Shown here in pieces: positions 35,927 through 64,000 of a stretch of 64,000 nt of DNA. The position numbers were made by a program, and so were the translations under genes. Origin of the DNA: Opitutus terrae PB90-1 (lineage in GTDB: Bacteria; Verrucomicrobiota; Verrucomicrobiia; Opitutales; Opitutaceae). Below the pieces are notes generated by a model. It was not told the origin of the DNA and ran no database searches. It saw only the letters and a list, made by a program, of their open reading frames with translations. Where the stretch lies: positions 5,837,001 through 5,901,000 of the forward strand of contig NC_010571.1 of the NCBI RefSeq assembly GCF_000019965.1, written 5' to 3'. Each line of letters opens with the position of its first letter. The stretch's first letter is position 1.

Positions 35927-37590
35927 TCAGCGCCCCTGCTCCTCCGGTTTCAGGTCCGCTCTCTTCACGCGCCGCACCGCCACGAATCGCGCGCGAAACA
36001 AATCTTCCATCAATTCCCGCGTCTCCGCCGGAATCTGCTCCACCAGCTCCTCCAATTTAGGCGGGTGCTTGGCCGGCTTCTCCTCCTCGTCGTCGTCCGT
36101 TCGCGTCGCCCGCACGACCGGTTCGCCGCGCGACTTGGCCTCGGCCAGAAACGCCTCTTCGGCGGCCGCGTCGGGCCAGACGTTCGTGTCTTCCGGATTC
36201 GCGTTCGGCGACACGTCTACCGGCTCGGAATCCGTGGGTTCGTTCGCCGGCGCCTCCTCGACTCTCACCAGCCGCGGTGGCGCGACAGGCTTGGGCGTGC
36301 GCGCTGGCTCGGCGGCCGGCCGCGAACCAGCTCTGCTTGCCGACACCGCTGGCGGTGCCGCCGCGCTCAACGTCGCCGCGAGCCGCCGCTCCAATTGATC
36401 AATCAGCCCTTTTTTTTTTCGTTCTGCAGGTCGGGATCTCCGGACCCCTGCGCGCCGGCCTCGGTTGCCGGCGTTTCTTCCGCCAGCGCGGCCAGCTCCT
36501 TGATCAAGCTGTCGATCGCGCGAGAGCGACTCGCGTCCACCGCTTTCAGCAGCGTGACTTCGAAATTGATCTTCTCGGCGAGCCCGAGCTTCACCGCGCC
36601 CTCGCCTTCACGCAGCGCGTCGAGCATCCGCGTGAGCTGCTCGGTCGTCATCGGCTCGCCGCCGAGCTTCGCGCTGCGGCCGCCTTGCGCGATGGCGTCG
36701 AGCAACGCCGCGCGCACGAACGCCTGCAGATCGCTGAGCAACCGCACCAGGTCACGGCCGTTCGTGTCGCAGTCGTCGACGATCGCCACGATCTTCCGGT
36801 GATCCCCCGCCGCGAGCGCGCCGGCGAGCTCGGCGATTTTTTCCGCCGACACGAGTCCGTAAACGTCGAGCACGTCCGCTTCCGAGATGTCGGTACCGCA
36901 GAACGAAATCATCTGGTCGAGGATCGATTGCGCATCGCGCATCCCACCGTCGGCCATCCGCGCGATGCACTCCAGCGCCGCCGCGCTGATCGTGATTTTC
37001 TCGGACGCGGCAATCTGTTTCAGCCGCGCGATGATCAGGTCCGGCGGGATCGGTTTCAGGTCGAACCGCTGGCATCGTGAAATGATCGTCGGCAGCACCT
37101 TCTGCGGATCGGTCGTGGCGAACACGAACTTCACGTGCCCCGGCGGCTCTTCGAGCGTCTTGAGCAGCGCGTTGAACGCCGCCGCCGAGAGCATGTGCAC
37201 CTCGTCGATGATGTAGACTTTGTAGCGGCCCTGCGCCGGCGCGTACTGCACCGTGTCGCGCAGGTCGCGCACCTGGTCGACGCCGTTGTTGGAGGCGCCG
37301 TCTATCTCGATGACGTCGAGGTGCGAGCCCTCGGCGATCGCCTTGCAGGCCGGATCGTTGGGATCGAAATCCGCCTTGGGACCGTCGGTGCAGTTCAGCG
37401 CCTTGGCGAAAATCCGCGCCGTCGAGGTCTTGCCCGTGCCACGCGGCCCCACGAACAGATAGGCGTGGGCGATCCGATTGCGGGCGATCGCATTTTTCAG
37501 CGTGCGCACGACATGATCCTGCCCGACGACGTCGTCGAACGTCTGCGGCCGCCACTTGCGGGCGATGACTTGGTAGCCGGTGGAGGACAA
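35927..37590 (-). CDS. dnaX: DNA polymerase III tau subunit, read through an A10 -1 frameshift
   Basis: Start TTG 37590 gives [17 protein letters not shown], the normal DnaX start. AAA+ motifs: [13 protein letters not shown] (Walker A), [13 protein letters not shown] (Walker B), [20 protein letters not shown] (sensor/arginine finger). The zero frame ends at TGA 36405-36403, giving a 395-residue gamma-like clamp-loader subunit. Just before it the mRNA reads A-AAA-AAG within ten As (36419-36410). A -1 slip continues as [12 protein letters not shown] and runs to 35927, giving a 554-residue tau. The extra 160 residues end in a compact helical domain ([19 protein letters not shown]), where tau binds polymerase. 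The frame was read directly; use of the shift is inference, and a homopolymer length error is the alternative. Confidence 0.85.
36410..36419 (-). other. A10 slippery site in dnaX (programmed -1 frameshift or transcript slippage)
   Basis: The mRNA-sense run is G-A10-GGGCTGA. In the dnaX frame it is phased A-AAA-AAG, the same heptamer and phase as the Escherichia coli dnaX frameshift site. A zero-frame TGA follows two codons later, at 36405-36403. Confidence 0.8.
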
Positions 37591-37703: not shown

Positions 37704-37810
37704 AAAAAAAAGTGGCCAGGCACTCCACGGCACTGGGAGAACGTCGTTGCCGTTGCTACCTTCCGGTCCTGGCGGAGTTCACGCGTCTGCCCATGCATGG
37801 CACCTGGCCG
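37704..37810 (-). ncRNA. ffs: Signal recognition particle RNA, small bacterial type (4.5S)
   Basis: The minus strand carries the diagnostic SRP helix-8 loop CAGGACCGGAAGGTAGCA (37772-37755), preceded by GTGAACTCCGC and followed by ACGGCAACGACG, as in bacterial small SRP RNAs. The ends close the long hairpin: GGCCAGG (37809-37803) pairs with CCTGGCC (37720-37714). A T8 run (37711-37704) forms its own terminator. The RNA binds Ffh and directs co-translational membrane targeting. The gene is about 100 nt and lies directly upstream of dnaX in the same orientation, an order also seen in other bacterial phyla. Confidence 0.92.
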
Positions 37811-60589: not shown

Positions 60590-62512
60590 ATGTCGCGCAA
60601 AGCCAAGTCCGCCGCCGCGGATACCCATTCAGAGGCCGTTGAGGCCGTGATCGAGAAAACCGCGTCCGCGCCAACAGAGGCCGCCACCGGCCCCGATATT
60701 CCCGCCGGCGGAATCAATGACAAGATCCGTCACCTGATCCGGCTCTCCAAGGAGCAGGGTTATCTCACGTTCGACGACATCAATGAGGCGCTGCCGGAGT
60801 CGGTCGAGAACCAGGAGGAGATCGATAATGTCCTCTCCATCCTGCAGAACCTCGAGATCGAGATCCTCGAACCCGATCAGGTCGACGACTATAAGCAGCG
60901 GATGGAGGAGGCGGAGGAGGAAGAGTCCCGCTCCTCGCAGCACGATATCTTGGACGACCCGGTCCGGATGTATCTCAAGCAGATGGGTCAGGTTCCGCTG
61001 CTGACCCGCGAGCAGGAAGTCGAGATTTCGAAGCGGATCGAGAACGCCGAGTTGAAAGCGCAGGAAGCGCTCTTCCAAGCCACGATCATCGGCAATTACA
61101 TCGTGACGCTCGGTCAGAAGCTGATCGACCGCCAGGAGCGGTTCGACCGCGTGGTGATCGACAAGAAAATCGACAGTCGCGAATCGTATTTCAAGGGCCT
61201 GGAGAAACTCGTGCTCTCCACCCGCAAGGCAGAAGAGGCCGTCGCCGACTCGTGGCAGGAATATCTCAAGGCCAAGTCCGACGCCGAGCGGAAGAAAGTC
61301 ATGGCCAAGCACAAGAAGCGCGAGACCACGCTGCGGTCCCACTTCGGGAAATTTTTCTTCAAGCTCAAGGTCTACGAGGAGTTTCTCGAACAGCTCCGGC
61401 CCGTGCTCGAGGAGATCGAATCGCTCGATCAGCAGCTCGAGCGGGCCAAGCACCCGAAGTCCAAGAAGGACGCCACGATCGACACGAAGGTCATTCAGCA
61501 CCGGCTGAAGCAGATCGAGACGATCCACCGCATTGACCCGGCCGAACTGTTGAAGGTGGTTACGCAGACGCGCGTGCACGTGCGGGAGGCACACCAGGCC
61601 AAGACGGAGATGGTCGAGGCCAACCTCCGACTCGTGATCTCGATCGCGAAGAAATACACGAACCGCGGCCTGTCTTTCCTCGACCTGATTCAGGAGGGCA
61701 ACATGGGCCTGATGAAGGCGGTCGAGAAGTTCGAATACCGCCGCGGCTACAAGTTCTCCACCTACGCCACGTGGTGGATCCGCCAGGCCATCACCCGCTC
61801 GATCGCCGACCAGGCGCGCACCATCCGCATTCCGGTGCACATGATCGAGACCTTGAACAAGGTCATGCAGGTGCAGAAGCAGCTCCTGCAGGAATACGGT
61901 CACGAGCCGACGCCCGAGGAAGTCGCCGACGAGATGAATCTCCCCGTCGAGCGCGTCCAGCAGATCATGAAGATGGCGCAGCAGCCCATCTCGCTGCAGT
62001 CGCCCGTCGGCGATGGCGATGACACCAGCTTCGGTGACTTCATCGAGGACAAATCCGCCGAAAATCCCTACGACATGACGGCGTTCTCGCTCCTGCGGGA
62101 AAAGATCATCGACGTGCTCGACTCGCTCACCGAGCGCGAGCGCCGCGTGCTTTCGCTACGGTTCGGTCTGATCGATGGCTACAGCCGCACGCTCGAGGAG
62201 GTCGGCAAGCAGTTCAAGGTCACGCGCGAACGTATCCGCCAGATCGAGGCCAAAGCGCTGCGCAAGATGCGCCATCCGACGCGCATCCGGCAATTGCACG
62301 GATTCTTCGATGCCGAGCAGATCGACAACGCGCAGAATCTAATGAAGGTCGCCGCGACGAGCGGGTTGCCGAACCGCCAGCCCCCCGTACCCGGTCTGCC
62401 GGGTCGGCCCGCGCTCCCGAGCGGATTGCCACAGCGTCCGGCCACGCCGTCTGGTTCCTCCGCCGCGAACCTGCCGCCCGTGCTGCCGCGGCCCACGCCG
62501 CTCAAGCCCTAG
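60590..62512 (+). CDS. rpoD: RNA polymerase primary sigma factor (sigma-70)
   Basis: 640 residues. Region 1.1 ([20 protein letters not shown]), region 1.2 ([20 protein letters not shown]), a large non-conserved insert (about 170-330), region 2 ([40 protein letters not shown]), region 3 ([20 protein letters not shown]) and region 4 ([20 protein letters not shown]) are all present. The helix-turn-helix matches group 1 factors that read TTGACA/TATAAT promoters. The C-terminus is extended by about 60 residues of Pro/Gly/Leu-rich sequence beyond the usual end. It is probably co-transcribed with dnaG. Confidence 0.97.
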
Positions 62513-62592
62513 CCGCAAAGCGGGCGCCGCTCACAACGGAATAGGCTGCTTCGAGCTTTACAGGGTCTGCGCTCGGCATACGTTGCCCAATC

Positions 62593-62832
62593 ATGGCTAA
62601 TCTCCCTGCATATCTGGCCGCATTTGGCATCGGCGGTACCGAGCTGCTGATCATTTTGGCGATCATCTTGGTGCTGTTCGGCGGCGCGAAACTGCCTTCG
62701 CTGGCCAAGGGACTCGGCCAATCCATCAAGGAGTTCAAGAAAGCCAGCAAAGACGAGGACGAGACCAAGCCGGCGGCCTCCACCGAGGCCGAAGCGAAAA
62801 AACCCGAAGTCACCAAGACCGGGACGAACTGA
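62593..62832 (+). CDS. tatA: Sec-independent translocase protein TatA/E
   Basis: 79 residues. One helix ([20 protein letters not shown], about 12-31), the hinge [20 protein letters not shown], an amphipathic helix and an acidic/charged tail. This is the standard TatA layout; it oligomerises to form the Tat pore. The twin-arginine dehydrogenase at 24924 is a possible client. tatB and tatC are not here. A strong terminator follows. Confidence 0.95.
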
Positions 62833-62856
62833 GTCGTTCCCCTTCAGCGATCGAAC

Positions 62857-62887
62857 AAGCGCGCCGATTCCGGCGCGCTTTTTTTTT
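62857..62887 (+). terminator. Rho-independent terminator of tatA
   Basis: AGCGCGCCG (62858-62866), loop ATTC, CGGCGCGCT (62871-62879), then T8 (62880-62887). A perfect stem and a long T-tract. Confidence 0.92.
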
Positions 62888-62989
62888 GCGCGCGTCTGCC
62901 CTCGTCGCGTCGCCCACTTCCCCTTTTGCCCGCTGCTGCCCCTACCTGGCGGCCGTAACATCATTTCGTAATTCTCAACACGCGCCCGC

Positions 62990-64000
62990 TCACCCGTTCT
63001 CTCCAGCCTCGCCCGCGCCCTCCTCTTCCGGTCGTTCCCGTAACCACAGCTTGAACTCTTCGATCTGCCCGGCCGCGCCCAGCGCCAGCAGCTCGTCGCC
63101 GGCCTGAACCGATTCTTCGGCGGTCGGATTCAGCATCCGCAACCCGCCTCGGTTGATCCCGGCGATCTGCACGCCGAATGCCTGCGCCCAGCCGAGTTCG
63201 CCCAGTGTGCGGCCCGCGGCGCGACTCCACTCCGGCACCACGAGCGCCTGCATCTGCACTTCCTCGAAAATCGAATCGCCCAGCGTGTTTCCGCTCACCT
63301 CCGCCAGGAATTTCCGGCCCGCGTGCACCTGTTCCCTCGTGCCCATCAGCAGCACGCGATCGCGCGGATAGAGCACCGCGTCCGGGCTCGGCAGGGGAAT
63401 CGTGAAACCCTGCCGCTCGATGCCCACGACCGAGCATCCAAACCGCGCCCGCAGGTCCAGCTCCGCGATGCTGCGGCCCTGCGCATCGGCAAGGTCCCGA
63501 ATCACGCAGTCGAGAATGTGCAGGTTCCACGCGCTGTGGGGACGCAGCCACGGCGCCGACGTGCCGGTCAACTTGTGGTCGGCTGATTCGATCACCGTTT
63601 GCAGCTCCGCTTCGAGATGGCTGTGCCAGAAGATCAATCGCTGGCGCAACAGCAGGAGGGCCACGATCGCCGCCAGCGCGCTGCCCAGCATCAGCAAGCG
63701 GGCGGTGCCTTCCGTTGGCAGCAGCAGTGCCAGCCAGACGAAGAGCCCGAGCCCCGCCCCCGCCTTGAGCACCCACTCAACCGCCGGCGTGAGCTTCGAC
63801 CCGCGGCCGCGGCTCGCGGTGGTGGCCTGCGCATAGATCAACGCCAGCGCGGAGACGTTGCGCCAGATCGCCACCAAGGGCGCCAGCAGCACCACGCACA
63901 GCAGCACCCAGAAGATCACCTCCGGCCCATGCGGGAACAACCAATCGCGGCCCACGCGTTCCTCCAGCGCCGCCTCCAGTTCACCCGAAAATACGAGCAC
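62990..64000 (-). CDS. C-terminal part of a second KefB-like antiporter (5' partial)
   Basis: At least 336 residues; the frame is open to the right edge, so the exchanger domain should lie beyond the window. The visible part has three to four helices (EVIFWVLLCVVLLAPLVAIW, VLKAGAGLGLFVWLALLLP, LLMLGSALAAIVALLLLRQR), a LIFWHSHLEAELQTVIE segment and two RCK_C-type domains (LDCVIRDLADAQGRSIAELD and ALVVPEWSRAAGRTLGELGW). The same order and similar words (LVAIWRN, FWHSHLEAEL versus LLAIWRN, YWHSEWQSSM) occur in the gene at 37863, so they are paralogues. Role: cation/proton exchange gated by a ligand on the RCK_C domains. Confidence 0.85.
   Translation of the reverse strand: MLVFSGELEAALEERVGRDWLFPHGPEVIFWVLLCVVLLAPLVAIWRNVSALALIYAQATTASRGRGSKLTPAVEWVLKAGAGLGLFVWLALLLPTEGTARLLMLGSALAAIVALLLLRQRLIFWHSHLEAELQTVIESADHKLTGTSAPWLRPHSAWNLHILDCVIRDLADAQGRSIAELDLRARFGCSVVGIERQGFTIPLPSPDAVLYPRDRVLLMGTREQVHAGRKFLAEVSGNTLGDSIFEEVQMQALVVPEWSRAAGRTLGELGWAQAFGVQIAGINRGGLRMLNPTAEESVQAGDELLALGAAGQIEEFKLWLRERPEEEGAGEAGENG

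Follow-up and report, generated by a model that had tools for sequence, protein, structure and literature searches.

In Opitutus terrae PB90-1, the dnaX reading frame runs into ten consecutive adenines, is closed by a stop codon directly behind them, and is followed by a tail that is open in the −1 frame. We propose that the long form of the protein, tau, is obtained from this gene by RNA-polymerase slippage at the poly-A site, which is the most likely mechanism on comparative sequence grounds (probability of about 0.8 in our estimate). In Escherichia coli, tau is the form that ties the clamp loader to the polymerase and the helicase. The layout was observed in the window, by which we mean the whole 64,000-nucleotide stretch of DNA analysed (contig NC_010571.1, positions 5,837,001 to 5,901,000; coordinates below are counted from its first letter), in a genome that consists of one contig of 5,957,605 bases. 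It had been put forward in a sequence-only reading, and the window sequence bore it out: on the minus strand, the zero frame of dnaX ends GAA AAA AAA AAG GGC TGA, with the stop at 36405-36403, and the −1 frame stays open to 35927, adding 163 residues where about 160 had been given.

The zero-frame ORF of dnaX (36403 to 37590, minus strand) encodes 395 amino acids from an inferred TTG start at 37590, and the TGA that closes this short form (36403 to 36405, minus strand) is a direct reading of the sequence. The 395-residue product scored 434.6 bits against TIGR02397, well above the cut-off of 250, in agreement with the N-terminal AAA+ domains of DnaX. Three Pfam domains were found in it, DNA_pol3_delta2, DNAX_ATPase_lid and DNA_pol3_gamma3 (residues 235-358), and solved gamma/tau structures matched it with an E-value of 2e-79. 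Judged by these matches, the product is a DnaX with domains I-III and a short linker, as expected of the gamma form. The slippery run lies at 36410 to 36419 (minus strand); it is conserved and exactly ten As long, and behind it the zero frame closes within 2 codons and the +1 frame within 3 codons. The closest relatives include a contig of Opitutus sp. (L016). On its 5′ side, dnaX is neighboured by a bacterial small SRP RNA gene (37711 to 37809, minus strand; Rfam RF00169, 65.7 bits), which has no part in the mechanism. A T8 run directly 3′ of that RNA gene (37711-37704, minus strand) may be its terminator.

We compared the run with the other homopolymers of the genome. The A10 in dnaX is the sole A/T run of at least ten bases on either strand, next to eight further runs that are exactly A9 and 56 that are exactly A8, the latter number being obtained by subtraction from 75 A8 windows. 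Since the counts drop about sevenfold with each extra base, a single genomic A10 is unremarkable, and it is the location of the run that stands out. An A10 was found somewhere in 20 of the 21 genomes of a family sample. Its location was compared with dnaX in a few of these genomes, and three (G013, G066 and G114) had a single A10 each, at the end of the dnaX match. In the dnaX core of the Opitutaceae-centred set, AAA accounted for 27% of the Lys codons (475 AAA, 1277 AAG). The window holds a second long A-run, an A9 at 62879-62887 (minus strand), which lies 3′ of an ORF ending at 62990 and beside a GC-rich inverted repeat; the mechanically called 151-aa ORF around it (62509-62964) is of doubtful reality, and this A9 is therefore probably non-coding.

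Read from inside the run, the tau-specific tail (35927 to 36418, minus strand) has 163 residues and ends with a stop at 35929-35927, so that tau would reach about 554 residues by arithmetic. It is made up of the junction, a variable linker and a conserved C-terminal element of about 40 residues, and a search against Pfam and NCBIfam gave no match that would mark it as a known tau domain IV or V. Differences between 21 disjoint pairs of −1 loci, sorted by codon position 1/2/3 of the tail frame, numbered 153/93/330, and the first 12 codons past the run gave 49/45/92 in 31 pairs. The same bias was seen in zero-frame tails (14/7/48, 3 pairs) and in +1 tails (1/1/17, 1 pair). By this measure, the tail is under coding constraint in the slipped frame. 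The sequence-only reading had also described a compact helical domain at the end of the tail. In an AlphaFold model the helices were recovered, with good scores at residues 2-19, 122-127 and 131-142 and a lower one at 84-96, the stretches separating them being low-scored; the compactness found modest support, the overall confidence being low (mean pLDDT 68.8, pTM 0.25).

To place the site among its relatives, genomes from the order (177), the class (141) and the phylum (115) were surveyed, these samples overlapping, and 160 further stretches were fetched. Removal of six duplicates brought the loci from 258 to 252, with related species remaining among them. The homopolymer and the frames in related genomes had been named beforehand as a check of the layout, and one continuous frame in a near relative as the case against it. 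In the Opitutaceae-centred set, the run was present in 89 of 91 loci, the other two (L024 and L078) ending before the site, and 87 of the 88 loci with an assigned tail had A9-A10 with the tail in the −1 frame. No near relative with a single uninterrupted frame turned up in the family: the lone exception, L085, matched L108, from a different family (f10), without a difference in the stretch compared (L085 is counted both among these 88 loci and among the 36 zero-frame loci below). Elsewhere in the order, other families do include relatives with a continuous frame, 36 of which keep the run. The comparative evidence supported the view that the short form is what standard decoding yields, tau being dependent on a slip.

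Across the order, an A-run of at least 8 was found at query position 371-390 (median 378) in 196 of 213 unique loci. Three of these, at a contig edge (L080, L192 and L201), were left out of the tail-frame counts. For the remaining 193, the frame was called by the tail HMM in 178 and by the longest open frame only in 15; the two approaches disagreed in L183 and L210. The tail was in the −1 frame in 129 loci, in the zero frame in 36 and in the +1 frame in 28, all +1 and zero-frame cases lying outside the window's family. The sequence-only reading needs correcting in that the −1 direction is not what matters most, as relatives use the zero and +1 frames with the same run. The +1 form was present in two single-contig genomes, G032 (L147) and G094 (L161). 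The tail HMM, seeded with the window tail and searched in the 252 unique loci, had its best match, to the element of about 40 residues, in the −1 frame in 124, in the zero frame in 42 and in the +1 frame in 21, and no match in 65, among them 39 of 39 from outside the order.

On a DnaX tree, at least 13 frame changes were counted among 116 run-bearing rows (53 in −1, 35 in zero and 28 in +1). This tree was built from 142 DnaX cores by a quick search, with 41 of its 139 forks weakly supported; when only its well-supported branches are considered, the −1, zero and +1 labels still require 4, 7 and 6 changes, respectively. Run-bearing rows of mixed frames were found within families f8, f19, f20, f22 and f24. 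Some sister loci are one A apart at the run, with A9 and the zero frame in L111, L160 and L167 versus A10 and the +1 frame in L172, whereas L105 and L161 (A9, +1) differ from L109 (A9, zero) in frame at unchanged run length.

Stops in the other frames were a second shared property of the site. Both non-tail frames were shut within 10 codons in 176 of the 193 loci (the longer of the two had a median of 4), whereas control positions in these genes gave 18 of 193 (+90 nt) and 12 of 193 (−240 nt). Among run-free control loci of the class and phylum, 1 of 35 closed both within 10 codons; these controls leave out the outside-order run loci L249, L250, L251 and L261 and 40 later-fetched loci. The p-values of 3e-19 and 3e-31 ignore shared descent, with related species remaining among the loci. 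A non-tail frame stayed open for more than 25 codons in six of the 193 (L105, L155, L177, L183, L210 and L218). With off-frame stops so near, a slip into a non-tau frame mostly gives a gamma-like product, as described for Thermus (PMC1088944).

On these observations, the frame of tau may have become nearly neutral in the order, a view that we hold to be somewhat probable. The A9-A10 run would scramble the transcript frame, small indels in or near the run would rotate tau among −1, 0 and +1, and selection would keep only the run and the off-frame stops. Switching of the run length at the DNA level (phase variation) was considered as well and was thought unlikely because the length is steady, at A9-A10 in 187 of the 193 loci.

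The 17 order loci without a run of at least 8 comprised two that end before the site and 15 that reach it, namely L107, L151, L152 (A6, tail in −1) and 12 of families f6, f7, f25, f27 and f28. L152, of family f21, is a lone −1 layout with only A6, in A_AAA_AAC phase, and could stem from decay, from misassembly or from a change to ribosomal frameshifting. No run of 8 was present in L230, L231 and L232, from small genomes, nor in the nine loci of the small-genome families f7 (L224-L229) and f25 (L235, L236, L239), six of which gave weak zero-frame matches to the tail HMM. The gamma form may have been lost with genome reduction in f7 and f25.

Two explanations would remove the need for a slip altogether, and we give both very little weight. 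A sequencing error in the homopolymer, or a gene in decay, is conceivable given that ten-base homopolymers are error-prone and that many of the relatives are metagenome assemblies. It is hard to reconcile with the agreement of 87 of 88 distinct loci, among which are the single-contig genomes G035, G114, G126, G144 and G154, and with L109 and L161, whose equal A9 runs precede different frames and hence are not run-length errors; the strong codon-position bias in the tail also speaks against it. It is about as improbable that the tail is a separate small gene with its own start past the dnaX stop. A TTG in the tail frame does lie just past the stop in the window, at 36394, an ATG, GTG or TTG was found near the junction in 43 of 88 loci (ATG in 6), and the tail bears no Pfam or NCBIfam name. 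However, in 45 of the 88 the tail frame contains no ATG, GTG or TTG between positions −30 and +47 relative to the stop, and the zero-frame relatives carry this tail element as an in-frame fusion. The residues right behind the run also argue for continuity, being conserved in the tail frame: most of the 88 Opitutaceae-set loci have a KGLIDRLEARL-type junction in −1, the third residue after the run is Leu in 80 of them, and a sub-group has a second junction type, beginning KRLT.

The remaining explanations place the slip in the ribosome. Programmed −1 frameshifting at A_AAA_AAG, which would resemble that of E. coli dnaX with the two products trading roles, is unlikely in our judgement, although the heptamer is there: the window run contains it in phase (AAA AAA AAG at 36417-36409), as do 87 of the 129 −1 loci, the window included. 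Atkins 2016 (PMC5009743) speaks of reversed dnaX as ribosomal frameshifting and presents a Chlorobium candidate with E. coli-like stimulators. A ribosomal share is therefore possible. Such frameshifting leaves unexplained the 28 +1 loci and the keeping of the run in 36 zero-frame loci. A further 28 of the −1 loci end in A_AAA_AAC, which in E. coli is much less shift-prone than A_AAA_AAG according to Atkins 2016 (PMC5009743). The run exceeds the 7-nt heptamer throughout the 193 loci, being A10 in 145, A9 in 42 and another length in six (A11 in 3, A8 in 2, A13 in 1). Stimulators were also assessed, by fold and Shine-Dalgarno (SD) tests, each run on a single window, with a simple score for matches. 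The 88 loci of the Opitutaceae set showed no SD-like or stem-loop enrichment over control windows, with a mean downstream fold z of −0.28 versus −0.12 in the control window and an SD match of at least 5 in 4 of 88 loci versus 14 of 440 elsewhere. In the other −1 loci, SD matches were found in 8 of 42 versus 16 of 210 elsewhere, and the fold z of other groups was slightly lower than in controls (−0.26 to −0.63 versus −0.04 to 0.33); a weak stimulator may thus act outside the Opitutaceae set. Sliding of the ribosome on the poly-A of a uniform mRNA, into all frames, would be as blind to frame as transcript slippage is. It is nevertheless quite improbable, as a published study of sliding found it robust at A11 and little at A9 or A10, and 187 of the 193 runs here are A9 or A10. 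Taken together, the data appear to fit RNA-polymerase slippage better than −1 ribosomal frameshifting of the E. coli type.

If RNA polymerase slips on the A10, a mixed pool of mRNAs differing in their A counts would be produced. Transcripts with the templated ten As, or with a count leading to the +1 frame, would give the short gamma-like DnaX, both frames stopping within a few codons, and those whose count shifts the downstream part to −1 (for example 11 As) would give tau. In the window's family, tau would not be made by standard decoding. We infer three elements of this scheme: that most of the slipping is due to the polymerase and not to the ribosome, the ratio of gamma to tau, and that the tail does the job of tau and is essential.

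The inverted layout described in the sequence-only reading is real but not new: genes of this kind are already in print in Antonov 2013 (PMC3711429), and the window gene belongs to them. That paper describes 17 dnaX genes, spread over 12 genera, that depend on recoding to produce tau, always in the −1 direction. Twelve of the 17 have poly-A stretches, nine of them with ten As, for which transcriptional realignment is suggested. Four Verrucomicrobia genomes are in that set, and the window dnaX may be among the nine A10 genes. As in these two-ORF genes, the window has a zero-frame stop at the poly-A run and tau in the −1 frame, with a conserved tail. The genes of Antonov 2013 are all −1, whereas the order studied here also uses zero and +1. 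The same source reads differing frameshift directions among functionally equivalent clusters as pointing to transcriptional realignment, and one shared direction as pointing to ribosomal frameshifting. A +1 form of dnaX, or rotation of the frame within an order, was not found in the titles and abstract openings of the open-licence papers that our searches covered.

Three other dnaX genes offer partial likenesses. The A9 gene of Thermus thermophilus is a published case of transcript slippage (PMC1088944), and that report and Atkins 2016 (PMC5009743) describe an A-run with stops close by in both off-tau frames. The window likewise has an A-run of at least nine and close stops in both non-tau frames. 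In Thermus, however, tau is in the zero frame, whereas in the window it lies in −1 and needs a slip; the zero-frame relatives in the order look Thermus-like. E. coli dnaX also gives two products from one gene and has the A_AAA_AAG heptamer in common with the window run, but there the slip makes gamma, whereas here it is needed for tau, and the SD-like and stem-loop stimulators of the E. coli type were not enriched in the Opitutaceae set. The third case is Blochmannia, an endosymbiont with poly-A frameshift genes possibly rescued by slippage, in which full-length DnaX would need slippage at a homopolymer (PMC3017870). There, the frameshift falls within the segment unique to tau and is regarded as a lesion that is corrected, whereas the window has a family-wide site at the end of the gamma part.

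Outside the order, 27 first-batch loci of the class had no A-run of at least 8 near the site, in the interval from −45 to +260 nt relative to the end of the core, and 20 more had none of at least 9. In other classes of the phylum, a run of at least 9 was found in 9 of 20 loci; in eight of these the zero frame was open, and the ninth (L282) had the −1 layout. That layout was also present, with A10, in L249-L251 of family f76, and a single f71 locus carried an in-frame A9. The layout in f76 and in L282 (f88), far from the order, may have arisen more than once. Two loci of phylum family f78 (L269 and L270) carry an A9 and an A10 about 26 codons apart in one in-frame dnaX, with close off-frame stops after each, which may be a double slippage site. 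When profiles of the tail element of the order and of the C-terminal element found in other Verrucomicrobia were compared, the match was weak (probability 5.9%, 12 columns), and, with all 39 outside-order loci lacking a tail-HMM match, homology of the tail to the tau tails of the wider phylum is not established.

The order constitutes a natural experiment, with one site in three frames, in which polymerase slippage can be told apart from directional ribosomal frameshifting. One practical implication is that tau may go unannotated by automatic pipelines in many of these genomes. For the family of Opitutus terrae, the comparative evidence suggests that a core subunit of the replisome is encoded out of frame throughout, and that its long form would depend on slippage.
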